Notes under the pieces: model-generated
Told to the model about the DNA's origin: nothing
Database searches by the model: none
The model's input: the letters and a program-made list of their open reading frames with translations, nothing else
Shown here: piece after piece, positions 1,493-36,947 of the stretch
Layout: each line of letters opens with the position of its first letter
How positions within the stretch are numbered: position 1 is the first letter of the stretch
Made by a program: the position numbers and the translations under genes
IMG/VR virus record: IMGVR_UViG_3300037883_000109
Location: 1-36,991 of that record
Strand: one strand, 5' to 3'
DNA: 36,991 nucleotides
Source: a virus

Positions 1493-1728
1493 TGCTTGAG
1501 CAAGCAGTGCACTTCGTGGTCCGTTGCGACTGCTGCGACCGGGAAGCCGCGCCGCCGGCCCAGTCGTCGCCCATGGCCCTGGTGCTGGCGGCCAAGGCCG
1601 GCTACGAGGAACTCCCCGGCGGCCAGTTCTGCCCGCAGTGCCTGGAAAGCACGTACACGCTCACCGCCCCGACGTTCAGCCTGCCTCTCGCCCCTGGAGC
1701 AACCACCAGTGGACGAACCCCTGCGTAG
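1492..1728 (+). CDS. Small zinc-ribbon-like protein
   Basis: 78 residues starting at ATG 1492, coupled to the previous gene by TGATG. Cysteines near the N-terminus (CDCC) and a later CPQC pair form a plausible four-cysteine zinc site; between them lies an Ala-rich linker. The C-terminus (from about residue 60) is Pro/Thr/Ser-rich and may be disordered. Its last 20 bases overlap the start of the replication initiator gene. Function unknown; a nucleic-acid-binding or adaptor role is an inference from the zinc knuckle alone. Confidence 0.65.
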   Translation: MLEQAVHFVVRCDCCDREAAPPAQSSPMALVLAAKAGYEELPGGQFCPQCLESTYTLTAPTFSLPLAPGATTSGRTPA

Positions 1729-2653
1729 CACGACGCTCTCCCTGCAGGCCGCCTTCCTGCTCCGCATCCTGCGCGATTACACGCGCGGCAAGAACTATTG
1801 CTGGCCCGGCCAGGCACGCCTGGCGGTGCTGATGGGCCGGACGACGCGTTCGGTGCGGGTCTACCTGCAGGAGCTCCGCCAGGCCGGCCTGGTCGTGGTG
1901 AGCCGGCAGGGCCTGAGCCGGACCAATCGATACTATGTGGCAGCTGCTTCCGCAGAAGAGCGGAAGCCCACTTCCGATCAAGAGCGGAAGCCCACTTCCG
2001 ATCAAGAGCGGAAGCCCACTTCCGATCAAGAGCGGAAGCCCACATGTGTTAGCAATTTGAATTATCTAGGGGAAAACAGCAGCAGCAGCGGGAACGGTGC
2101 TGCTGCTGTTCTTTCCGCTCCGCAGGAAATGCGGCTGGCCGAGGAGCAACTCGTCGAGCTCGGCCTGTCTCCTGGATTGGCCCGTCGCTGGGCCGGCCAG
2201 AGCGCCGACCTGTGCCTGGCGATCGTGCCGCATTGCCGCGAACGGTTCGCCCAGCGCCTGCAGCCGGTCGATAACCCGCCCGGCTACATGGTCCGCCTCT
2301 GGCAGGATCCCGTGGGCTGCGGCTTCACCCAGACCGCCGACGGGAGATGGCATGCGCCGGCCTGGGCGTCGCCGAAAGCTCGCTTCGCCGCCGAGGACGC
2401 GGCCAAGCGCCAGGAGGCCCAGGAGCGCGAACGGAGCCGCAAGGAGGAGGCGGGAGCCAAGGAAGTGGCCGAATTCCGGAGCTGGCGGGCGTTCCTCGAC
2501 CGACTCGAGGCGCTGCCCGCGGCAGAGCGCCAGGCAGTCGTGGCCGAGACGCGGCGGACCTGGCCGCTGCATTGCCAGGGCAGGGCGGACGATAGTTTCA
2601 GCGTGCTGCAACTGTGCCGGATCGTGCTGGAGAAACGGGAGGCCAAGCCGTGA
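1709..2653 (+). CDS. Phage replication initiator with N-terminal winged helix (lambda O-like role)
   Basis: About 314 residues from GTG 1709 (GGAG 1696-1699). The frame is open further upstream, but that extension is Arg/Pro-rich shadow of the preceding gene. Residues ~10-78 form a winged-helix DNA-binding domain (helix SLQAAFLLRILRDYT, recognition helix RTTRSVRVYLQELRQAG, wing VVVSRQGLSRTNRYYV). Residues ~84-112 are 3.6 copies of ERKPTSDQ, encoded by 24-bp repeats. A Ser/Gly/Ala linker follows, then a helical C-terminal domain with NPPGYMVRLWQDP, typical of phage and plasmid initiators that recruit helicase or its loader, and a charged tail. The architecture and the embedded origin-like repeats parallel lambda O. 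No helicase or helicase-loader gene is evident next to it, so it may use host DnaB. Confidence 0.75.
   Translation: MDEPLRSTTLSLQAAFLLRILRDYTRGKNYCWPGQARLAVLMGRTTRSVRVYLQELRQAGLVVVSRQGLSRTNRYYVAAASAEERKPTSDQERKPTSDQERKPTSDQERKPTCVSNLNYLGENSSSSGNGAAAVLSAPQEMRLAEEQLVELGLSPGLARRWAGQSADLCLAIVPHCRERFAQRLQPVDNPPGYMVRLWQDPVGCGFTQTADGRWHAPAWASPKARFAAEDAAKRQEAQERERSRKEEAGAKEVAEFRSWRAFLDRLEALPAAERQAVVAETRRTWPLHCQGRADDSFSVLQLCRIVLEKREAKP
1957..2110 (+). other. ori: Candidate replication origin inside the initiator gene (iterons, AT-rich stretch, inverted repeat)
   Basis: Direct 24-bp repeats occupy 1957-1980, 1981-2004 and 2005-2028 without a mismatch, and a partial fourth copy spans 2029-2043. Each full copy contains the dyad CGGAAG-CCCA-CTTCCG. 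Immediately downstream, 2044-2070 is markedly AT-rich for this genome (TTAGCAATTTGAATTATCTA), and 2075-2086/2099-2110 is a perfect 12-bp inverted repeat. The order iterons, AT-rich, inverted repeat within the initiator gene is that of lambda ori. Function is inferred; the repeats themselves are seen directly. Confidence 0.7.
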
Positions 2654-3202: not shown

Positions 3203-5386
3203 GTGTCCGATCATTCCCACTCACCACTCACCACTCACCACTCACCACCGGCGGGCGAGCCGGACATGCGTGACGTGCCGGTCGCCAAGATCCACGGCTC
3301 GCCTACCAACCCGAGGAAAAGCTTTGACGAGGCGAAGCTCGAGGAGCTGGCGGGCTCGATCCGGGAGAAGGGCGTGCTCGAGCCGCTGCTTTTGCGGCCG
3401 GCGAAGGGCGGCTACGAGTGCGTCGCCGGCGAGCGCCGCCTGCGCGCAGCCCGGCTGGCCGGCCGCGTCGTCGTGCCGGCGGTGATCCGGGCCCTCACCG
3501 ACGACGAGGTCCTGGAGATCCAGCTCGTCGAGAACCTGCAGCGCCAGGACTTGAACCCGCTCGAAGAGGCCGCGGGGATCGAGCAGTGGCTGGCACGCCA
3601 CCAGGGCGAGGGGGCGGTCAAGGAGCTGGCCAGGAAGCTCGGCAAGAGCACGGGCCACATCTACGGCATGCGCAAGCTCGGGCAGCTGCCGACTCTGGCC
3701 GCCAAGGCCGTGACCGAGGGAACGATCCCCATCGCGACCGCCCAGCTCATCGCCCGCGTGCCGGGGGAGAAGGCCCGCGCCGAGGCGGCCAAGGAGATCA
3801 TCAGGCCGATGCACGGCGACGGCGAGCCGCGCTCCTACCGCAACGCCCAGCACCTCATTCACCAGCGCTTCATGATCGAGCTCAAGCAGGCGCCGTACTC
3901 GACCGACGACGCCGGGCTCGTGGCCAGTGTGGGCGCCTGCACGGTCTGCCCGAAGCGCACCGGCAACAACAAGGCGGAATATCCCGACGCCCGCCCCGAC
4001 GTCTGCACGGACCCCGCCTGCTACGAGGTCAAGGTGAAGGCCCACCAGGACCGGCTGGTCGCCGCGGCCAAGGCCTCCGGAAAGAAGGTGCTGACGGGCA
4101 AGGCGGCCAAGGAGGTATTCAGCCCGTACGGCGAGCTGGCGTACAAGGCTCCCTACCTGGCCCTCAATGCGACGTGCTACGACGACCGCAAGGGCCGGAC
4201 CTACCGCCAGCTCCTCGGCAAGGAGCTCGCCGGCGACGTCGTGCTCGGCCGCGACTCCAAGGGGCAGCTGCACGAGCTCGTGCCGAAGGCGAAGGCGGCG
4301 AAGGTCCTGAAGGAGAAGGGCGTCGGCTCGCGCTCCTCGTCGAGGTCGGGCGCCGATAACTCGTGGCAGCGCGAGCAGGCCAAGCGCCGCGCGAAAGAGC
4401 AGGTCGATAAGGCGGTCCTGCGCCGTGCCCAGGGCCTGGTCGCCGTGGCGGCGGAGAAGCTCGCCGCGGGCGTCGTCGGCTTCACGCCGGCCATCACGGC
4501 CATGCTGCAGGCCATCGCTCTCTCCGCCGTCCGCCATTCGTGGGACGACTCCAATCGGCAGATCATCCTGCGCCGCGGCCTCGAGAAGCCGAAGACGGGC
4601 CACGCCGGGCAGAACCGCGACCCGGTCGCCGACCTGATCCCGACGCTGGACTCGCCACAGGTACTCGGGCTCTTGTGCGAGCTGGCCGCGTGCCGGCAAG
4701 GCCTGGTCACCGGCTACGCCACTCCGGCCGGCGAGCACAAGGCGTTCTGGAGCGTCTTCGGTCTGGATCCGGCCAAGGTCGGCAAGGAGGTCCGCGCCGA
4801 GCTGGCGGCGAAGGAGCGGGCGAAACCGTCGGCCAACGGCCACGCCCGCAACGGCAAGCACAAGAACGGCCGCGCGGCCCGGCAGGCGGTACCGGAGGGC
4901 GCCGGCCAGGAGGAAGAGGACGAGGAGCCCGCGGCCCAGGAGCGGAAACCGCAAGAGCATTGGCTGAGCGGGTTGAAGACCGGTGACCGCGTCAAGCTCC
5001 GGACCGGCCTCGGCGTCGAGGGGACGGTGATCGCACTCCGAGCCGGAGACAAACCGTCCGCGTTCGTCGAATGGGGCAAGATGCGCGGCAGAAAGAAACC
5101 TGTCCGCGCCTATCACCTGGTCGCCGACCTGGTCGAGGTGGACAGAGCCGCGGACGTCGAGTCGGAGATCGAGCTGTCGGAAGACGATGGCCGCTGCCGG
5201 GTGTGCGGCTGTACCGAGGACGAGCCGTGCGCGGGCGGCTGCGCCTGGATCGAACCGGGACTGTGCGACAACCCCGATTGTCTGGCCGCATCGCCGCCCA
5301 GGAGCCCCGAGGGGAAGCGGCGGCACAAGGCGATGCGCGCCGCCGGCGACAAGGTCCTGGCCGGCGCCGGCCAGGGCCATCTTTGA
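3203..5386 (+). CDS. Large ParB-domain protein with two cysteine-rich zinc motifs
   Basis: 727 residues from GTG 3203 (GGAG at 3191-3194); the alternative ATG 3266 would remove an N-terminal stretch encoded by a heptamer array. A ParB N-terminal domain spans residues ~23-115, with GERRLRAARLAG at 76-87 as the CTP/phosphate-binding box and VENLQRQDLNPLEEAAG at 109-125. A KorB-type helix-turn-helix follows (ELARKLGKSTGHIYGMRKLG, 141-160). Cys246, 249, 268 and 273 form one zinc-like site. A hydrophilic linker leads to a KOW-like segment (GDRVKLRTGLGVEGTV), and a dense cysteine cluster at 665-693 ends the protein. No ParA ATPase is adjacent. It may organise phage DNA or regulate transcription rather than partition a plasmid. 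Confidence 0.8.
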   Translation: MSDHSHSPLTTHHSPPAGEPDMRDVPVAKIHGSPTNPRKSFDEAKLEELAGSIREKGVLEPLLLRPAKGGYECVAGERRLRAARLAGRVVVPAVIRALTDDEVLEIQLVENLQRQDLNPLEEAAGIEQWLARHQGEGAVKELARKLGKSTGHIYGMRKLGQLPTLAAKAVTEGTIPIATAQLIARVPGEKARAEAAKEIIRPMHGDGEPRSYRNAQHLIHQRFMIELKQAPYSTDDAGLVASVGACTVCPKRTGNNKAEYPDARPDVCTDPACYEVKVKAHQDRLVAAAKASGKKVLTGKAAKEVFSPYGELAYKAPYLALNATCYDDRKGRTYRQLLGKELAGDVVLGRDSKGQLHELVPKAKAAKVLKEKGVGSRSSSRSGADNSWQREQAKRRAKEQVDKAVLRRAQGLVAVAAEKLAAGVVGFTPAITAMLQAIALSAVRHSWDDSNRQIILRRGLEKPKTGHAGQNRDPVADLIPTLDSPQVLGLLCELAACRQGLVTGYATPAGEHKAFWSVFGLDPAKVGKEVRAELAAKERAKPSANGHARNGKHKNGRAARQAVPEGAGQEEEDEEPAAQERKPQEHWLSGLKTGDRVKLRTGLGVEGTVIALRAGDKPSAFVEWGKMRGRKKPVRAYHLVADLVEVDRAADVESEIELSEDDGRCRVCGCTEDEPCAGGCAWIEPGLCDNPDCLAASPPRSPEGKRRHKAMRAAGDKVLAGAGQGHL
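3219..3246 (-). repeat. Heptamer array C: four GGTGAGT units (minus orientation) at the start of the ParB gene
   Basis: Four exact ACTCACC units on the plus strand. On the minus strand the array ends GGTGAGTGGGAAT, the same boundary as arrays A and E. If translation starts at GTG 3203 the array is translated as a Ser/Pro/Leu/Thr/His segment before the ParB domain. Confidence 0.9.
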
Positions 5387-10193: not shown

Positions 10194-10446
10194 AGGGAAA
10201 TGTCGGGACTGTGGCAGAGACGGCCTGGCGCTCAGCAGCGGGCGCTGTGGAAGGTGCTGTCGGCAAGCGTTTGTGATCGTACAGGCATTTATCGAGGGCA
10301 GGGCAACGAGGCTCCATGCAGTACGACGCCGAGGCAAGAGGGAAGACTCGCTTATGCCGCCTGAACGAATCGCGGAGCTACGCGCACTGGCCGAGGCGCG
10401 TAAGCCTCTCTTCGGGCGAGCGGTGATCATGATCCGGGAGGTGTGA
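10180..10446 (+). CDS. Small zinc-ribbon protein
   Basis: 88 residues from GTG 10180, with GGGAGAAGG just upstream. Two cysteine pairs (CRDCG and CGRCC) about ten residues apart make a treble-clef or zinc-ribbon knuckle at the N-terminus; the rest is basic and helical (VRRRGKREDS, then RIAELRALAEARK). It is likely to bind nucleic acid. Its stop overlaps the GTG/ATG start region of the DUF5131 gene. Confidence 0.65.
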   Translation: MPRPRGKCRDCGRDGLALSSGRCGRCCRQAFVIVQAFIEGRATRLHAVRRRGKREDSLMPPERIAELRALAEARKPLFGRAVIMIREV

Positions 10447-10448
10447 CC

Positions 10449-11534
10449 ATGGGCAAAACGTCGATCGAGTGGACCGAGTTCAGCATCAACCCGATCCGGG
10501 CCCGCAACAAGGCCACGGGCAAGGTCGGCCACTTCTGCGAGAAGATCAGCCCGGGCTGCGGTCACTGCTACGCCTCAGAGTGGAACGAAAACCGCCTCGG
10601 CACCGGGCTGCCGTTCTTGCCGGCGTGGCGGGACTCGGTCGAGCTGTTCCTGGACGAGGGCAAGCTGCAGGAGGTCCTGCGCCGCCAGAAGCCGACGACC
10701 TATTTCTGGTGCGATATGACGGACCTGTTCCTGGAGCATCATCCCGATGGGTGGATCGACGCCTGCTTCGCCACCATGGCCCTGACGCCCTGGCACACGC
10801 ACCAGGTGCTGACGAAGCGAACCCAGCGGATGCACGATTACTTCGACAAGCGCGTTACGAGGCACGTCCTGGCGGCCGCGGCCAGCCAATTGAGCGGCCG
10901 ACGTGACGGGGCGCTCGGAACCTGTGACCACGCCGTTTGCAACATCGACTGGCCCATTCCCAACGTCCAGCTAGGCGTCAGCGTCGAAGACCAGCCGCGC
11001 GCGGATGAACGCATTCACTGGCTGATCCGGACACCCGCGGCGCTGCGATTTTTGTCGTGCGAGCCGTTGCTCGGCGCCGTCGTGCTACCGGTCATGATCG
11101 ATGAGGCACTGGACTGTCCGCCGGAGGAACGGAGGCACTGGCGATTCGGTGGCATCGTGCCGGTTGAGTGCTTGCCGCTGCCGCCAGGATCTCGAGGAAT
11201 TGACTGGGTGATCGTCGGCGGCGAGAGCGGCCCGGACGCGCGCCCCTGCCACGTCCGGTGGATCCGTTCGATCGTGAAGCAATGCCGGGCCGCTGCGGTC
11301 CCGGTGTTCTCTAAGCAGCTTGGCAGCAGTGTCTGGAGTCGGAATGACGAGGTGGCCGACTGGTTCGATGAGTGCGGGCATCTGGAGATGCCAGGGACGC
11401 CGCGATTCCAGGGAGAGGTTGAGCGCGTTGTGGGGTTCCGCGACCGCAAGGGCGGCGACCCGGCCGAATGGCCCAAGGACCTCCGCGTCCGGGAGTTCCC
11501 CGGATCCGTGGCTCCAGTGGAGGCCCGGCCATGA
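10449..11534 (+). CDS. Phage Gp37/Gp68 family protein (DUF5131)
   Basis: 361 residues. ATG 10449 is chosen with GGGAGG (10436-10441) 7 bases upstream; GTG 10443 is in frame but too close to it. The family signature is clear: N-terminal KTSIEWTE, the three-cysteine motif C30-X6-C37-X2-C40 (CEKISPGCGHCYA), then YFWCDMTDLFLEHHPDGWID, FATMALTPWHTHQVLTKR and IDWVIVGGESGPDARP. This family resembles radical-SAM enzymes in its cysteine pattern and is often found with a 'three-Cys-motif partner' (TcmP) gene. No such partner is adjacent here. The substrate is unknown; the gene is frequent in phages and mobile DNA. Confidence 0.9.
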   Translation: MGKTSIEWTEFSINPIRARNKATGKVGHFCEKISPGCGHCYASEWNENRLGTGLPFLPAWRDSVELFLDEGKLQEVLRRQKPTTYFWCDMTDLFLEHHPDGWIDACFATMALTPWHTHQVLTKRTQRMHDYFDKRVTRHVLAAAASQLSGRRDGALGTCDHAVCNIDWPIPNVQLGVSVEDQPRADERIHWLIRTPAALRFLSCEPLLGAVVLPVMIDEALDCPPEERRHWRFGGIVPVECLPLPPGSRGIDWVIVGGESGPDARPCHVRWIRSIVKQCRAAAVPVFSKQLGSSVWSRNDEVADWFDECGHLEMPGTPRFQGEVERVVGFRDRKGGDPAEWPKDLRVREFPGSVAPVEARP

Positions 11535-11881
11535 TTCATAGCGACACCTGGACCTGCTGGGAGATCTTGCACAGCGGCGAGGGCCCGCGCGGGAAAAGCC
11601 ACGTTACGCGGCACGTCCATTCGGTCTCGCCAGAAGCGGCCGCCAAATTCGTTGCCGAGGAACTGGACGATGCCGAGAAGCGAGAAAGCGGCTGTAGCGA
11701 CAGCCACCTGAGCGGGGGCGAGCGCTTCATTGAGGTCGAGATTCCGGCCGGCATGGTACCGGGCTCCAAAGAAAAGAGCTCGGCCTTCTTCCGGGTGCGG
11801 ACGGTCGTTCGACGATGCTACGACGCGACGCTTCACCCGTCGCCCGAGGAGCTGGCTCACCAATTACGGAGACCGCGCTGA
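11531..11881 (+). CDS. Hypothetical protein between DUF5131 and HerA-like genes
   Basis: 116 residues from ATG 11531 (ATGA overlap). It has a beta-sheet region (TWTCWEILHSGEGPRG, HVTRHVHSVSPEAAAKFVAEELDDAEKR) and a strand (RFIEVEIPAGM), resembling small alpha/beta modules with no family name known to me. Its end overlaps the ATPase gene: by 67 bases if that gene starts at ATG 11815, or by CTGA if it starts at CTG 11878. Confidence 0.65.
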   Translation: MIHSDTWTCWEILHSGEGPRGKSHVTRHVHSVSPEAAAKFVAEELDDAEKRESGCSDSHLSGGERFIEVEIPAGMVPGSKEKSSAFFRVRTVVRRCYDATLHPSPEELAHQLRRPR

Positions 11882-13602
11882 AGAATATCCCGCTCGCCGC
11901 CGACCTGGCCCTGCCGGCCGAGGCTGTGACGCAGACCTTTGGCATCCTGGCCGTGCGCGGCGCCGGCAAGTCGAACGCCGCCGCCGTCATGGCCGAGGGG
12001 ATGTTCGCCGCCGGGTTGCCGTTCGTGGTGATCGATCCGGTCGGGAGCTGGTACGGGCTCCGCTCCTCGGCCGATGGCAAGGCGGCCGGCTTGCCCGTGG
12101 CCATCTTCGGCGGCCGCCACGGCGACGTGCCGCTCGAAAAGACCGGCGGCCAGCTCCTGGCCGACCTGGTCGTGGACCAGCGCCTGACCTGCGTGCTCGA
12201 CCTGTCCGAGCTGTCCGAGGGCGACAAGACGCGCTTCCTGATCGACTTCGCCGAGCGCCTCTACCGCCGCAACACGGAGCCCTTGCACCTCTTCCTGGAG
12301 GAGGCCGACGACTTCATTCCGCAGCGGCCGTTCCGGGAGCAGGCGCGGCTGGTGCGGGCCTGGGAAAACGTCGTCCGCCGCGGCCGGGCCCGGGGCCTCG
12401 GCATGACGATGATCACCCAGCGTTCGGCGGCCCTCAACAAGAACGTGCTCACCCAGGCCGAGACGCTGATCGTGCTGCGGACGACGTCGCCGCAGGACAA
12501 GAAGGCGATCGCCGGCTGGATCGAATACCACGGCCAGTCGAAGGAGCTGCTCGATTCGCTCCCCGGCCTGGCCAACGGCGAGGCCTGGGTGTGGTCGCCG
12601 TCGTGGCTGCAGGTGCTCCGGCGCGTGCGCGTGCTGCGGCGCTCGACGTACGACAGTGGCGCCACGCCCAAGGCCGGGGCCCACAAGCGGACGCCGGCGA
12701 CGCTCGCCGAGCTCGACCTGGCCGCGGTGCGGGCGCGCATGGCCGAGACGATCGAGCGGGCCCGGGCCGAGGATCCGCGCGAACTACGCCGGCAGATCGC
12801 CGACCTGCAGCGGCAGCTGCGGGAGAAGCCGGCTGCGGCCGAGCCGCGCATCGAGCGCGTCGAGGTGCCGGTGCTGCAGGCCGGTGAGGCGGCGTCGCTA
12901 CGTGAAGCGCTGGACGCGATCCGCGGCGTGACCGAGACGCTGATTCTTAAGCTGGGTCGCTGCGAGGATGCACTGCGCCTGGCGACTGACGCGCGACAAG
13001 GCTCCCGCGGTTCAGCGCCTAAACCCGTGCCCCAGCACCGCAACGGACAAAAGTATGCCAAACGTAGTCAAAGTATTCCAAATCCTATTTCGCCTAGCAC
13101 GGACGGCGACGAATCGATCAGTGGTGCACAGCAGCGCATCCTGGACGCCCTGGCCGAGCTGGAGGCCCTCGGCTTGCCCAGTCCGGAGCGCGTGCAGGTC
13201 GCTCTTCTGGCCGGCTACACGAACCTGTCGAGCAAGGGTTTCGCCAACGCCATCGGCAGCCTGCGCACGTCCGGGTGGATCCACTACCCCGGCTCCGGCA
13301 CGATCGCCCTGACCGAGGCCGGCCGGGCCCACGCCAACCCGGCCGCTCGGCCGCGGACCGCGGCCGAGCACCAGGAGCGGATCGTGGCCATGCTGGGCGG
13401 CGCCCACGCGCGGATCCTGCAGCCGCTCCTCGACGCCTATCCCAGCGACCTGGCCCGCGAGGAGCTGGCGGCGCGGGCCCATTACACGAACCTGTCGAGC
13501 AAGGGTTTCGCCAACGCCATCGGCCGGCTGCGCAGCCTCGGCCTGATCGACTATCCCGCACCCGGCCGCGTCGTGGCGCTGCCGGTGCTGTTTTTGGAGT
13601 GA
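11815..13602 (+). CDS. HerA/FtsK-superfamily ATPase with duplicated C-terminal winged helices
   Basis: 595 residues from ATG 11815. Walker A is AVRGAGKS (residues 46-53), Walker B HLFLEEAD (158-165), and a sensor glutamine lies in ITQRSAALNK (200-209). This is the HerA-type DUF87 ATPase core found in DNA translocases. A helical segment (ELDLAAVRARMAETIERARAE, then ELRRQIADLQRQLREK) forms a coiled coil. The C-terminus carries two winged-helix repeats, each with YTNLSSKGFANAIG, encoded by identical 42-bp DNA at 13216-13257 and 13483-13524. CTG 11878, preceded by GGAG and overlapping the upstream stop as CTGA, is an alternative start. It probably moves or pumps DNA; no NurA nuclease is adjacent. 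Confidence 0.8.
   Translation: MLRRDASPVARGAGSPITETALKNIPLAADLALPAEAVTQTFGILAVRGAGKSNAAAVMAEGMFAAGLPFVVIDPVGSWYGLRSSADGKAAGLPVAIFGGRHGDVPLEKTGGQLLADLVVDQRLTCVLDLSELSEGDKTRFLIDFAERLYRRNTEPLHLFLEEADDFIPQRPFREQARLVRAWENVVRRGRARGLGMTMITQRSAALNKNVLTQAETLIVLRTTSPQDKKAIAGWIEYHGQSKELLDSLPGLANGEAWVWSPSWLQVLRRVRVLRRSTYDSGATPKAGAHKRTPATLAELDLAAVRARMAETIERARAEDPRELRRQIADLQRQLREKPAAAEPRIERVEVPVLQAGEAASLREALDAIRGVTETLILKLGRCEDALRLATDARQGSRGSAPKPVPQHRNGQKYAKRSQSIPNPISPSTDGDESISGAQQRILDALAELEALGLPSPERVQVALLAGYTNLSSKGFANAIGSLRTSGWIHYPGSGTIALTEAGRAHANPAARPRTAAEHQERIVAMLGGAHARILQPLLDAYPSDLAREELAARAHYTNLSSKGFANAIGRLRSLGLIDYPAPGRVVALPVLFLE
13216..13524 (+). repeat. 42-bp identical direct repeat within the ATPase gene (13216-13257 and 13483-13524)
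   Basis: The two copies, 267 bases apart (89 codons, in phase), are identical over 42 bases although the surrounding wing sequences have diverged. Both encode YTNLSSKGFANAIG. Synonymous positions are also identical, which points to a recent copy or gene conversion. Confidence 0.9.
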
Positions 13603-19058: not shown

Positions 19059-21027
19059 CCTCCTCTTCGGTCCGCCCCGCCGCCGCCTCGATGAATCCGG
19101 CTGGATCGGCGGCAGCTACTGGGGCACCAACCGCGTCAAGACCCGCGCCGGCGTCGAGGTGGACGAGGCCCTGGGCCTGACCTACGACGCCGTTTGGTGC
19201 GCCACCCGCCTGATCGCCGAGACCGCCGCCCAGCTCCCCCTCATCCTGCACCAGAGCACCGGCGACAGCGGCAGCCGCGTTGCCGACGACCACCCCGTCC
19301 ACGACCTGGTCCGCTGCCGGCCCAACCCGGCGATGGGCGCGGCCGTGTTTCACGAGGGCCGGACCGTCCACCAGGTGAACTGGGGCAACGGCTTCGCCGA
19401 GATCGAATTCGATCGCCGCGGCGACCCACTGGCTCTGTGGCCGATCCATCCCTGGCGCGTGCGGCCCACGCTTCCCTCCGAGACCGACGAGCTCGGCCGG
19501 CCGCTCCTGCCGGATTACCCCTACAAGGTCCGCAACAATGACGGCTCCTGGGTTGCTTTCAAGCGCTCGGAGATCCTGCACTTCCCGGGCGCCATTAGCG
19601 AGGACGGCATCTGGGGCAAGGGCGTCATTGCCCACGCCCGCGAATCCATCGGCATGGGTCTCTCGACCGAGCGGCACGGGGCCACCTACTTCGGCTCCGG
19701 GGCCCAGCCGCGCGGCATCGTCACGGTCCCCGGCCTGAAAGACCGCGAGGCCCGCACCAACTTCCGCGCGGAGTGGAAAGAGATCCACGGCAGCCCTGAC
19801 AGTGCCGAAATCGCCATCCTCCCCGTCGAGGGGAAGTTCCAGCCGATCACGATCAATAATGAAGATTCGCAGTTCCTGGAAACGCGCAAGTTCAACGTCG
19901 CCACCATCGCCCGCTGGTACCGGCTCCCGCTGCACATGCTCATGGAGCTGCAGTCCGCGACGTTCAACAACGTCGAGCTGTTCGGCTCCGAGTTCATCCT
20001 CTATTCGATGATGACCTGGCTCCTCAAGCGCGAGGAGCAATGCGACCTGAAGCTGCTCACGCCCGAGGAGCGGGCCGCCGGCTACTTCTTCCGCCACGAT
20101 CTGACCGCGCTCCTGCGCGGCGACACCCTGGCTCGCATGCAGACCTACCAGGTCGCCCTCACCACCGGCGTCTACACGCTCAACGACGCCCTGCGCCGGG
20201 AGCACCTGCCGACGATCGGCCCGGCCGGCGACAAGCATTTCTTTGCGGCCAACAACCTGGCCACGGTCGAGGACCTGGCCGCCGGCCGGGTCCCGGGCAT
20301 GGGCGGCGGGCCGGCGACCGGCGCGGCGAGCGGCGGGGCCGGAACAGGCACCACGTCGCCCTCACCTCGCAGCGCCACGCCGGCCGCGCCGTCCGATCAG
20401 GACCGCGACCTGATCGAGCTGCCGGACGTGCGTCAGCAGGACAATTACAGCTGCGGCGCCGCCGTCGCCATGTCGGTCGGCCGCTATTTCGACGTCGGTC
20501 CGGAGAGCCTCGAGGAGTGGAAGGCCGCTCTCGACACGACGCCCGAGAACTCCACGCGCCCGATCAAGATCATCGAATACCTGACGTCGCTCGGCCTGGC
20601 GGTCACCGCCGCCAGCGATATGACCGTCGAGGACCTGCGCGACTTCTGGAAGGACGGCATGCCGGTCATCTGTCCCATCCAGGAGTACGGCCTCCCCAGC
20701 AAACAGGCCTCCTTCCAATACGGCCATTACGTGGCAACGATCGGCGTGGCCCACGGCCAGGTATTCGTCCAGGACCCGTCGATCGACAACGTCCTGGAAG
20801 GGCAGGGCTCCGACCAGGCCCCGGGCCGCTCCCTCATCGCCGAGTCCACCTGGGATAGCGTCTGGCACGACCGGGATGCCGACGGGCGGCAGTACGTGCG
20901 GTTTGGCATCGCGGTCGGCCGGTCGGTCAGCGACCCGGACGGCGATGGGGAGGAGGAAGACGATGCAGACACCGGCCAGAACCCGGCTGCCGCGGCTGGC
21001 CCAGCGACGCGGCCGGCTGCTGTATAG
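19051..21027 (+). CDS. HK97-type portal protein fused to a papain-like (C39-like) peptidase domain
   Basis: 658 residues from ATG 19051. Residues 1-~415 are a complete HK97-family portal: YDAVWCATRLIAETAAQLPL near the start, then GSGAQPRGIVTVPG, RWYRLPLHML, NNVELFGSEFILYSM and YTLNDALRREHLPTIG. A Gly/Ala/Ser/Pro linker follows (~416-450). A second domain starts at LPDVRQQDNYSCGAA: Cys468, His559 (QYGHYVAT) and Asp575 (QDPSI) fit the catalytic triad of C39-like double-glycine peptidases. The C-terminus is acidic and then Ala/Pro-rich. The domain could cleave head proteins, remove itself or enter the cell with DNA; none is proved. Confidence 0.88.
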   Translation: MLDLLFGPPRRRLDESGWIGGSYWGTNRVKTRAGVEVDEALGLTYDAVWCATRLIAETAAQLPLILHQSTGDSGSRVADDHPVHDLVRCRPNPAMGAAVFHEGRTVHQVNWGNGFAEIEFDRRGDPLALWPIHPWRVRPTLPSETDELGRPLLPDYPYKVRNNDGSWVAFKRSEILHFPGAISEDGIWGKGVIAHARESIGMGLSTERHGATYFGSGAQPRGIVTVPGLKDREARTNFRAEWKEIHGSPDSAEIAILPVEGKFQPITINNEDSQFLETRKFNVATIARWYRLPLHMLMELQSATFNNVELFGSEFILYSMMTWLLKREEQCDLKLLTPEERAAGYFFRHDLTALLRGDTLARMQTYQVALTTGVYTLNDALRREHLPTIGPAGDKHFFAANNLATVEDLAAGRVPGMGGGPATGAASGGAGTGTTSPSPRSATPAAPSDQDRDLIELPDVRQQDNYSCGAAVAMSVGRYFDVGPESLEEWKAALDTTPENSTRPIKIIEYLTSLGLAVTAASDMTVEDLRDFWKDGMPVICPIQEYGLPSKQASFQYGHYVATIGVAHGQVFVQDPSIDNVLEGQGSDQAPGRSLIAESTWDSVWHDRDADGRQYVRFGIAVGRSVSDPDGDGEEEDDADTGQNPAAAAGPATRPAAV

Positions 21028-21973
21028 CCCCGACCAGGAGCGCGACGAACACGGCCGCTTCGGCGAAGGCGGAGGCGGCGGCGAGTCTCACGCCGACCGG
21101 GATGCGCGGCGGGACAAGGAGGACGAGGAGCTCGACGCCAAGCGAGAGAAAGAAGACCACGTCATCGACCGCGGCCGCGAAAAGGCCGATGACAAGCTCG
21201 GCCGGCAGGAGGGCAAGGAAGACGACCAGCGCGAGCGCGCACGCGGCAAGGAAGACAACCGCTTTGATCGGCAGCAATCGCGCGAGCGGGATCAGGTCGA
21301 TAAGCGGCAGGAACAGGAACGCAGCGACCTCGAGGATAAGCACACCGACGAATGGGACAAGCATCCGATCCACGAGCGTCAGGACGCTGAAAGCAAGGCC
21401 CAGGAAGAGCGGCACCAGGCCGAGCGGGCTGCCCACGACGACCGCCAGGCCAAGGAACAGGCGGAAATGGAATCCCGGCATGAGCGCGAGAAGGCCGAAG
21501 CCGAGGCCTCCGGCGACGAGGACAAGGAACAGGCCGTGCACGAAAAGCACCAGGACGAAACGGCCGAGCTGACGGACCGGCAGACCAGGGAGGATCACGA
21601 GCTCGACGCCAGGCAGGAGCGCGAAAAGCAGGAGCTGGACCAGAAGCAGGGCGAGGAGCTCGAAAAGGTCGGAGACGAGGTGACCGAGCGCCAGCTCGGC
21701 GAAGAAAAGCAGCTTGAGAGCCGGCACGAGGCCGAATGGAAGGCGATGGAGGCAAAGCAGGACAAGGAAGCCACGGAGCGGCAAGAGAAGGTTGACCGCG
21801 AACGCAAGGAAGAGGATGCGCGGATCGAGGCCAAGCGCCAGCAGCAATGGCAAGAGATCGAGGCCAAGCGCGACGCCGAGGACAAGGCCATTCAGGACCG
21901 CCGCGACGCCGAGGATCGGGAGATCGAGGCCCACCGCGCCGACGAAGACCGCCAGCACTCACACGAGAAATAG
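20963..21973 (+). CDS. Very charged coiled-coil protein between portal and protease (candidate scaffold or core protein)
   Basis: 336 residues from ATG 20963, with GGAGG 8-12 bases upstream; it overlaps the portal gene by 65 bases. After a basic leader and YSPDQERDEHGRFGEG (a motif often found in phage head proteins), nearly all residues are D, E, K, R, Q and H. They repeat in forms like DRQAREDHELDARQEREKQEL, predicting a long, continuous coiled coil. Its position before the S49 protease fits a scaffold, a protease-associated core or a portal-vertex protein. Composition forces a spurious hydrophobic frame on the other strand. Confidence 0.8.
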   Translation: MQTPARTRLPRLAQRRGRLLYSPDQERDEHGRFGEGGGGGESHADRDARRDKEDEELDAKREKEDHVIDRGREKADDKLGRQEGKEDDQRERARGKEDNRFDRQQSRERDQVDKRQEQERSDLEDKHTDEWDKHPIHERQDAESKAQEERHQAERAAHDDRQAKEQAEMESRHEREKAEAEASGDEDKEQAVHEKHQDETAELTDRQTREDHELDARQEREKQELDQKQGEELEKVGDEVTERQLGEEKQLESRHEAEWKAMEAKQDKEATERQEKVDRERKEEDARIEAKRQQQWQEIEAKRDAEDKAIQDRRDAEDREIEAHRADEDRQHSHEK

Positions 21974-21976
21974 CCC

Positions 21977-22921
21977 ATGAACCTGCACTTCCTCGACCAG
22001 ATGGTCTGGCTGGCCGACCCCGCCCAGGTCCAGCTCCACGTCTACCGGGCCCTGCGCGTCCAGGGCTGCCCGACGGCCCGCCAGCTGGCCAAGGCCCGGC
22101 AGAAGCGGCTCGACGCCGCCCGCCACTGCGCCACCCGGGCCGCCGTCCGGGCCACCGGCGGCAAGGTCGGCGTCGTCGCCGTCCACGGGCCCATCACCCA
22201 GCGCTACAGCGTCGCCACCGAGAAGACCGGCGGCGTCTCCTGCGAGGAAGTCTCCGCCGCCCTCGACGTGCTCTCCAGCGACCCGGCCGTCAAGGCTGTC
22301 ATCCTGCACGTCGATTCCCCGGGCGGCGAGAGCTACGGCGTCGAGGAGCTGGCCGACAAGCTCTACGACCTGCGCGACAAGAAGCCCTGCTACGCGATTG
22401 CCGACAGCATGGCCTGCTCGGCCGCCTACTGGATCGCCTCGGCCTGCTCGACCTTCTGCTGCACCCCGGGCGGCGACGTCGGCTCGGTCGGCGTCTACGC
22501 CGTCCACCTCGACCAGTCGGCGGCCCTGGAGCAGGAGGGCATGAAGGTGACCCTGGTCCACGCCGGCAAATACAAGACGGAGGGGAACCCGTTCGAGGCC
22601 CTCGACAAGGAGGGCGCGGCCTACATGCAGTCGATGGTTGACGCGACCTATGCCCGCTTCTGCAAGGGCCTGGCTCGCAACCGCGGCTGCAGCCTGGACG
22701 ACGTCCGCAAGAACTTCGGCCAGGGCCGCGTGGTCAACGCTGCGGACGCTCTCAAGTGCAAGATGATCGACAAAGTATGCACGTTCGAGGAGCTGCTCGG
22801 TAAGCTGACCTCGGGCGGCGGTTCGGCGGTCGGCGGCCAGCGAGCGAGCATGGACGTCTTGCGGATGCGGCACGCCCTGAACAAGAGCCGGGCGGCACGG
22901 CCCGCCCAGAATGCCCGGTAG
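21977..22921 (+). CDS. S49/SppA-like head maturation protease
   Basis: 314 residues from ATG 21977, four bases after the coiled-coil gene. The S49 fold is evident: GKVGVVAVHGPI, then VILHVDSPGGE with oxyanion glycine, and ADSMACSAAYWIAS with nucleophile Ser148. In VHAGKYKTEGNPF the general base is probably Lys200. LGGVN-like alternatives are absent. Members such as lambda gpC degrade or trim scaffold and core proteins before DNA packaging. The last 10 bases, including the TAG stop, overlap the tRNA-Asn gene. Confidence 0.9.
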   Translation: MNLHFLDQMVWLADPAQVQLHVYRALRVQGCPTARQLAKARQKRLDAARHCATRAAVRATGGKVGVVAVHGPITQRYSVATEKTGGVSCEEVSAALDVLSSDPAVKAVILHVDSPGGESYGVEELADKLYDLRDKKPCYAIADSMACSAAYWIASACSTFCCTPGGDVGSVGVYAVHLDQSAALEQEGMKVTLVHAGKYKTEGNPFEALDKEGAAYMQSMVDATYARFCKGLARNRGCSLDDVRKNFGQGRVVNAADALKCKMIDKVCTFEELLGKLTSGGGSAVGGQRASMDVLRMRHALNKSRAARPAQNAR

Positions 22922-22984
22922 CACAACCGGTAGTGCGGCGGGCCGTTAACCCGCAGGTTGGAGGTTCGAGTCCTTCCCGGGCAG
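22912..22984 (+). tRNA. tRNA-Asn (GTT) with C33
   Basis: A full cloverleaf: acceptor TGCCCGG/CCGGGCA (22912-22918/22977-22983), D stem 22921-22924/22933-22936, and anticodon stem 22938-22942/22950-22954. The anticodon is GTT at 22945-22947, and the T arm is 22960-22976 with loop TTCGAGT. The discriminator is G and CCA is not encoded. Position 33, almost always T, is C here (loop CCGTTAA). It overlaps the protease stop codon and, on the other strand, the end of the gene at 22946-23275. Confidence 0.88.
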
Positions 22985-23275
22985 CATCGGTTCGTGGTGA
23001 ACGCAGCCGAAATCCGGACCCGTTCGGAAACCAGCGTAATAACTCTCCGTGTCCCAGTAGATCGCATGGTCCCTCGGCAACGAAGCCTCCTCTTTCTCAT
23101 CGAGGTTGCCGCCATAGACGATCCTGGGACAGCCGCACTGCTGATGCACGCGGCTGTGGTCCGCCTCGTCCTCCTCCCGCAGTTCAATGCGCACATCGCC
23201 CGGCCCGTACGGCATTGCGCGATAGGCCACTTGCCCCCACCATTTGCAAGTTTTGCAAGTTTCCATGCCGCCCAT
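22946..23275 (-). CDS. Antisense cysteine-rich protein in the head module (moron-like)
   Basis: 109 residues from ATG 23275 (minus strand) with GAGG 7 bases upstream. An N-terminal CKTCKWW knuckle, a CGCPRIVYGG motif and late Cys/His in FGCVHHEP look like a zinc-binding protein. The last ~12 residues are encoded by antisense of the tRNA-Asn, so the gene's original end is probably replaced. It lies leftward between the protease and the capsid genes, typical of a 'moron' with its own control. No family recognised. Confidence 0.65.
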   Translation of the reverse strand: MGGMETCKTCKWWGQVAYRAMPYGPGDVRIELREEDEADHSRVHQQCGCPRIVYGGNLDEKEEASLPRDHAIYWDTESYYAGFRTGPDFGCVHHEPMLPGKDSNLQPAG

Positions 23276-30506: not shown

Positions 30507-30512
30507 CTTGCT

Positions 30513-36491: not shown

Positions 36492-36947
36492 GTGGCCGAC
36501 CTTCTGCTTACCGTTCCGTCGGGCGAAGTCAGCTTGACCGGCTCCGTCGCCAAGACGGTGCTGGCCGCGACGGCGCCCGCCAACCAGCGCCTGAAGATCA
36601 TGGGCGTCGAGATCTTCGGCAAAGGCACCTCGAACACCGACACGCCGATCAAGTGCGAGCTGAGCCGCATCACGACCAACGGCGGCACCGCCACCACGAT
36701 CACGCCCGCCAAGGTCGATGACGACGACGGCGAAACCGCGCAGGGCACCTACCAGGCCAACTTCACCGTCGAGCCGACCACGTACGGCGCCAACATGCGC
36801 ATCTGGGAAGTCCATCCCCAAACCGGGATTATCGTTTACTTCCCCATGCACCAGGAAATCAAGATCAAGGGCGGCAACATCGTCGGCCTGCGCATGACCA
36901 GCACGCAGGCGGAGACGGTCAGCGCCCAGTTCCTCGTCGAGGAGTAA
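36492..36947 (+). CDS. Small beta-rich structural protein
   Basis: 151 residues from GTG 36492, with GAGGAG about 9 bases upstream. Beta strands with Thr-rich composition: EVSLTGSVAKTVLAATAPAN, LKIMGVEIFGKGTSNTDTP, GIIVYFPMHQEIKIKGGNIV. It resembles a cupin- or jelly-roll-like decoration/fibre protein. It is the last gene before heptamer array E. Confidence 0.6.
   Translation: MADLLLTVPSGEVSLTGSVAKTVLAATAPANQRLKIMGVEIFGKGTSNTDTPIKCELSRITTNGGTATTITPAKVDDDDGETAQGTYQANFTVEPTTYGANMRIWEVHPQTGIIVYFPMHQEIKIKGGNIVGLRMTSTQAETVSAQFLVEE

Follow-up and report, generated by a model that had tools for sequence, protein, structure and literature searches.

A probable replication origin of tandem GGAAG-N4-CTTCC dyads embedded in a phage initiator gene

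The window analysed here, an IMG/VR virus record of 36,991 bases that is listed as linear and was taken at its full length, very probably carries near its left end a phage replication origin of the lambda-O/RepA_N type that is embedded in the gene for its initiator. An origin on the lambda plan had been proposed for this site in a preliminary description of the DNA, and the proposal was supported by matches of the encoded protein to initiator families, by conservation of the order of the elements in other genes and by covariation of arginines of the protein with the DNA site.

Repeats, AT-rich element and inverted repeat of the initiator gene

The exact 24-bp unit CTTCCGATCAAGAGCGGAAGCCCA was found three times in direct succession (1971-1994, 1995-2018 and 2019-2042), preceded on the plus strand by a diverged first copy (1947-1966) with 3 mismatches over 20 nt. 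The three exact repeats and partial fourth of the preliminary description were located at these positions, and shuffles of the contig gave an expectation of 0 matches for them. Read across the unit boundaries, the units form three perfect dyads CGGAAGCCCACTTCCG, each of the form CGGAAG-CCCA-CTTCCG, at 1961-1976 (dyad 1), 1985-2000 (dyad 2) and 2009-2024 (dyad 3), with a half-site CGGAAG at 2033-2038. No further exact copy of the dyad was found elsewhere in the contig. The dyad first described within each copy, CTTCCG-N8-CGGAAG, is also present in the 24-bp units, but sequences from relatives, which were themselves collected with the N4 pattern, favour the N4 dyad across the boundary rather than the N8 dyad as the unit.

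The repeats are followed by an AT-rich element at 2042-2068, a candidate unwinding site, which ranked first in AT richness among about 36,970 windows of the contig at both 20 and 27 nt; an AT-rich window had thus been correctly recognised earlier, although its best placement is 2042-2068 and not 2044-2070. Next to it, at 2069-2116, is an inverted repeat with arms (2075-2090 and 2095-2110) that are 94% complementary, in agreement with the inverted repeat previously noted at 2075-2110. Folding of 2069-2116 with RNA parameters gave -33.4 kcal/mol as opposed to -16.6 +- 2.9 kcal/mol for synonymous recodings at contig codon usage, of which 0 of 5,000 were as stable as the native sequence. Repeats, AT-rich stretch and hairpin all lie in frame between an HTH_36 domain (aa 9-62) and the C-terminal part of the protein.

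Given the encoded peptide and the codon usage of the contig, the probability of the dyad was 0.0023 per copy, the single-copy value being the one that applies because the three exact units may be recent duplicates and so are not independent events. Codon usage therefore argues strongly against chance dyads. The rare codon choices required also count against an explanation by peptide-level or neutral tandem duplication, in which the repeats merely lengthen a flexible linker, even though the copies in the window all lie in one frame (ERKPTSDQ) and three of them are identical, as would be seen after recent duplication.

Initiator protein and gene neighbourhood

The initiator ORF (1709-2653, plus strand), which was assigned from its translation and from HTH_36 and PHROG profile matches, has a predicted GTG start, with an in-frame TTG upstream at 1496, and encodes 314 aa. 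The match of its N-terminus to HTH_36 (PF13730; aa 9-62, 1733-1894, plus strand) scored 33.7 bits compared with a curated cut-off of 25. PHROG profiles for replication initiation, O-like and DnaD-like helicase-loader proteins were also matched, with phrog_270 at about 1e-9 (best 1.2e-9) and the O-like phrog_391, 345 and 678 at 6e-6 to 9e-6, all of these across the winged helix and linker only. An AlphaFold2 model of aa 1-82, made with a 40-sequence alignment, was a confident winged helix (pLDDT 87), in which DSSP placed the putative recognition helix at aa 46-58 (1844-1882, plus strand), with Arg47 encoded at 1847-1849 and Arg50 at 1856-1858. The top structural rows for this winged helix included plasmid Rep initiators and a Rep-DNA complex (4pql, 4pt7 and 5kbj), the scores of which were tied with those of other winged helices, including LexA, CRP and MarR folds; for 4pql_B, Z was 11.2 and rmsd 2.1 over 82 aligned residues, and unrelated winged helices fell within Z 1.

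The C-terminal part (2117-2650, plus strand) matched nothing in Pfam or NCBIfam and had no relative among the ORFs fetched. A single-sequence AlphaFold2 model of the whole initiator was poor (pLDDT 48) and the Foldseek list derived from it was meaningless. Thus, with neither a Pfam or NCBIfam match nor a confident model, the helicase-recruiting-type domain previously assigned to this part was not substantiated. Searches with the protein by tblastn gave no match in annotated phages and four weak matches in plasmids, to HTH or hypothetical proteins, while a search of IMG/VR with the back-translated whole initiator found nothing and a search of 392 planctomycete genomes found one weak match, again across the winged helix and linker.

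Late genes of a tailed phage were evident on the contig, including those for small and large terminase, portal, head maturation protease, head-tail connectors and tape measure. The surroundings of the initiator and origin have a G+C content of about 67%. No helicase loader (including any like lambda P), DnaB-type helicase or primase was recognised among the phage ORFs scanned. The cumulative GC skew had its minimum at 36,852, at the contig end, and its maximum at 15.8 kb, near the terminase genes (block-shuffle p = 0.0025); the skew turn anticipated near the origin is thus weakly compatible with an origin near the left end, and then only in a circular or permuted genome.

Several other features of the contig were noted. 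The left end carries a tRNA-Met gene (169-241), and since its 3' end is not repeated elsewhere in the contig, there was no sign of paired attachment sites. A tRNA-Asn gene at 22912-22985 (ARAGORN and Rfam, 64 bits) overlaps the final bases of the head-maturation-protease ORF, which ends at 22921. Arrays of the CACTCACCA type are dispersed in both orientations, at 665 and 3218 on the plus strand and at 30512 and 36953 on the minus strand. AT skew reached +0.63 at 21001-22000, far above that of the remaining contig, across an ORF (20876-21973) with no PHROG match. A DUF5131 or radical-SAM-type protein is encoded beside a HerA-like ATPase at 10443-13602, and the ORF at 3203-5386, near the origin, encodes 727 aa in which ParB_N and HTH_ParB domains are accompanied by a long C-terminal part without assignment.

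Occurrence of the dyad in other genomes

IMG/VR DNA was scanned for two tandem GGAAG-N4-CTTCC dyads placed 5 to 35 bp apart (a spacing of 19 to 49 bp), with no protein query. At 22-24 of the 35 loci found, the dyads were inside a winged-helix gene or next to one, just 3' of the winged helix, and all 10 proteins scanned from such loci matched replication initiator or helicase-loader profiles. Five viral matches (L019, L026, L030, L031 and L037) were rejected as copies of a single unrelated, conserved gene. The same scan of GTDB bacterial contigs placed dyads beside a winged-helix gene at 14 of at least 119 loci listed, the remainder of which look like chance or other repeats.

In a motif-blind sample of 131 HTH_36 genes from six phyla, the dyad was present in 3. 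Thus, the dyad is not common to all HTH_36 genes and marks a subset of them; as judged from these scans, its enrichment belongs to phage initiators and genes related to them rather than to HTH genes in general. Many of the dyad-less HTH_36 genes contained candidate direct repeats of other kinds in the same linker. Long linker repeats of other sequence (e.g., GSDTGAL x6 and GGESPAP x5), which are candidates for further iteron classes, were noted in four HTH_36 genes (L174, L216, L239 and L240), and the annotated initiators of Escherichia phage Ayreon and Phage C72C1 carry their own, different repeats at the same place.

Since two N4 dyads were required for a sequence to be collected as a relative, neither N4 spacing nor the occurrence of repeats in relatives counts as independent evidence; the reading frame, position and polarity of the dyads were outside the scan query. 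About 23 independent genes keep the order of winged helix, dyad iterons and AT-rich element. Across 26 genes, exact dyads numbered 68 at 0-399 bp past the winged-helix domain as opposed to 1 in the remaining 248 kb. At nine loci (L051, L070, L085, L089, L099, L111, L113, L116 and L134) the dyads fell outside the winged-helix ORF but kept about the same distance to the domain as elsewhere; several of these arrays come immediately after the stop codon of a gene that encodes a winged helix only. Three of these loci, from Xanthobacteraceae (L085, L099 and L111), have a short winged-helix gene with two exact dyads and an AT-rich stretch 17-19 bp past the stop, and possibly represent an integrated mobile element.

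In an average of the relatives, AT content exceeded the locus mean by about 15 points over the 40 nt past the last dyad but stayed flat ahead of the array. The same one-sided order, with the AT-rich region next to the iterons, is seen in ori-lambda, and the one-sided AT peak fits strand opening that would adjoin bound iterons.

Position and polarity also bear on the reading of the dyads as an autoregulatory operator, through which a winged-helix transcription factor would regulate its own gene or genes downstream, the sites having no part in an origin. Most winged helices of this size are regulators, certain dyad-bearing genes code for hardly anything besides the winged helix, and the structural ties with LexA, CRP and MarR folds noted above would suit a regulator as well. 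However, no exact dyad was found within 1 kb upstream of the domain in the 26 genes, the sites lie inside or behind the gene, the AT-rich element is one-sided and the family matches are to replication initiators, so that a purely regulatory role is unlikely. The dyads may have an additional autoregulatory effect, by roadblock, beside a role as origin.

The dyad was translated as RKxTS, GSxLP or ExxF, i.e., in all three frames, across 23 clusters of dyad-bearing genes, and mixed frames within one gene were noted in 13 of these 23. Of 36 spacings between dyads within the range searched, 33 were 22-24 or 46-48 bp. The commonest value in relatives was 23 bp, which shifts the frame; this spacing, together with the changing frames, indicates that DNA geometry sets the distance between sites. 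The earlier explanation of the 24-bp spacing as a multiple of three that keeps the protein open thus does not hold, relatives using 23 bp at least as often. From the three-frame reading, position, spacing and polarity, it follows that selection acts on the DNA site and not on the peptide. With the same DNA encoded by relatives as different peptides in three frames, or placed outside the winged-helix ORF, and with phasing fixed at 22-24 bp, the duplication of a peptide linker considered above becomes a very improbable account of the repeats.

Covariation of the recognition helix with the dyad

Twenty-five winged helices from dyad-bearing genes were compared with 89 from dyad-less genes. The four alignment columns that best separated the two sets were residues 50, 47, 46 and 51, all of which are in the recognition helix. 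Arg50 was present in 22 of 25 dyad-bearing and 18 of 89 dyad-less sequences (p=8e-10, relatedness ignored) and Arg47 in 25 of 25 and 43 of 89, respectively (p=3e-7, relatedness ignored); as the alignment profile was seeded with dyad-bearing sequences and relatedness was uncorrected, the ranking of columns carries more weight than these p-values. The covariation suggests that the winged helix most likely binds the dyads.

Covariation with the recognition helix, and the presence of dyads behind winged-helix genes in unrelated phages and genomes, also make it most improbable, even more so than duplication of a linker, that the array serves the ParB-like protein of 3203-5386 as a centromere-like site. 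This explanation draws on the location of the ParB_N and HTH_ParB coding sequence, which is 1.2 kb downstream.

Comparison with known initiators

An initiator gene that carries its own origin is a classical plan and already known. In ori-lambda, several iterons, each an imperfect inverted repeat, lie inside the gene of the initiator, lambda O (PMC7466680). The window agrees with this system in having an initiator with an N-terminal DNA-binding domain, dyad iterons in the initiator's own gene and a winged helix that is matched by PHROG O-like profiles. It differs in the iteron, which is CGGAAG-N4-CTTCCG as opposed to the ATCCCTCAAAACGAGGGA type of lambdoid phages, in a C-terminal part without detectable relation to that of lambda O, and in the lack of a recognised P-like loader among the ORFs scanned. 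Thus, of the earlier statement that repeats and protein are both unlike those of lambda, the part concerning the iteron sequence stood, whereas the protein is linked to O, if weakly, by these profile matches.

In RepA_N plasmids (pSK41 and pTZ2162), a winged-helix N-terminal domain binds repeats that are central in rep, the part of the protein encoded by the origin is a linker and a separate C-terminal domain contacts DnaG (PMC5703833). The origin repeats of the window are likewise central within the initiator gene, and 4pql, 4pt7 and 5kbj are among its best structural rows, level with other winged helices. In contrast with RepA_N, however, the window has different repeats and a C-terminal part without family match. 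No match to PF06970 (RepA_N) was found in the contig at E <= 10 and none appeared in the Pfam scan, so the initiator of the window would work like RepA_N proteins but is not classed among them.

The Rep protein of plasmid pPR9 also has a pfam13730 N-terminal domain, which resembles a phage replication protein, and the plasmid replicates autonomously; its N-terminal domain and origin, a region of about 500 bp, differ from those of pSK41 as a block, and a mini-replicon replicates (PMC5703833). The window initiator shares the HTH_36 (pfam13730) domain with pPR9 Rep, in which the C-terminal domain is of the pSK41 type. HTH_36 Rep proteins and iteron-like repeats have also been described for the Paracoccus plasmids pAES7, pMARC3 and pMOS2 (PMC3832669); in the available part of that report, the repeats are oriV sequences near rep that differ between plasmids, and no shared GGAAG dyad is reported. 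No description of an iteron class shared across divergent initiators, or of this dyad class, was found in the open-licence literature, a scope within which a missing description is weak evidence for novelty.

Discussion

The proposed lambda-O/RepA_N-type origin would work as follows. The winged helix (aa 1-82) would bind the GGAAG-N4-CTTCC dyads, probably as one dimer per dyad, and the GGAAG half-sites would be read by the recognition-helix residues Arg47 and Arg50. Sites that follow one another every 24 bp (22-24 bp in relatives) would stack the proteins along the DNA, and the resulting array would strain and melt the AT-rich element that adjoins it (2042-2068). Host replication proteins would then be recruited by the C-terminal part of the initiator, a step proposed because neither a helicase loader nor a primase was recognised among the phage ORFs scanned.

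Beyond this contig, it is an even chance, in our estimate, that the winged helix, the GGAAG-N4-CTTCC iterons and the AT-rich element make up one portable origin cassette, with a recognition code (Arg47 and Arg50 for GGAAG), a phasing of 23-24 bp and a polarity that phage and mobile-element initiators of several phyla would share, and with a C-terminal part that changes with the host. Such a cassette would be held together because the DNA site sits in, or just behind, the coding DNA of the domain, which offers a reason for initiator domain and origin to travel together. What is added to the classical plan is a class of origin site, taken from one contig, that recurs at the same place and with the same polarity in about 23 divergent initiator genes. 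The encoding of the dyad in three frames is a clear example of protein sequence giving way to DNA function, the two arginines and GGAAG make up a recognition code that is testable, and the dyad class would allow origins of phages and plasmids to be located from sequence alone.
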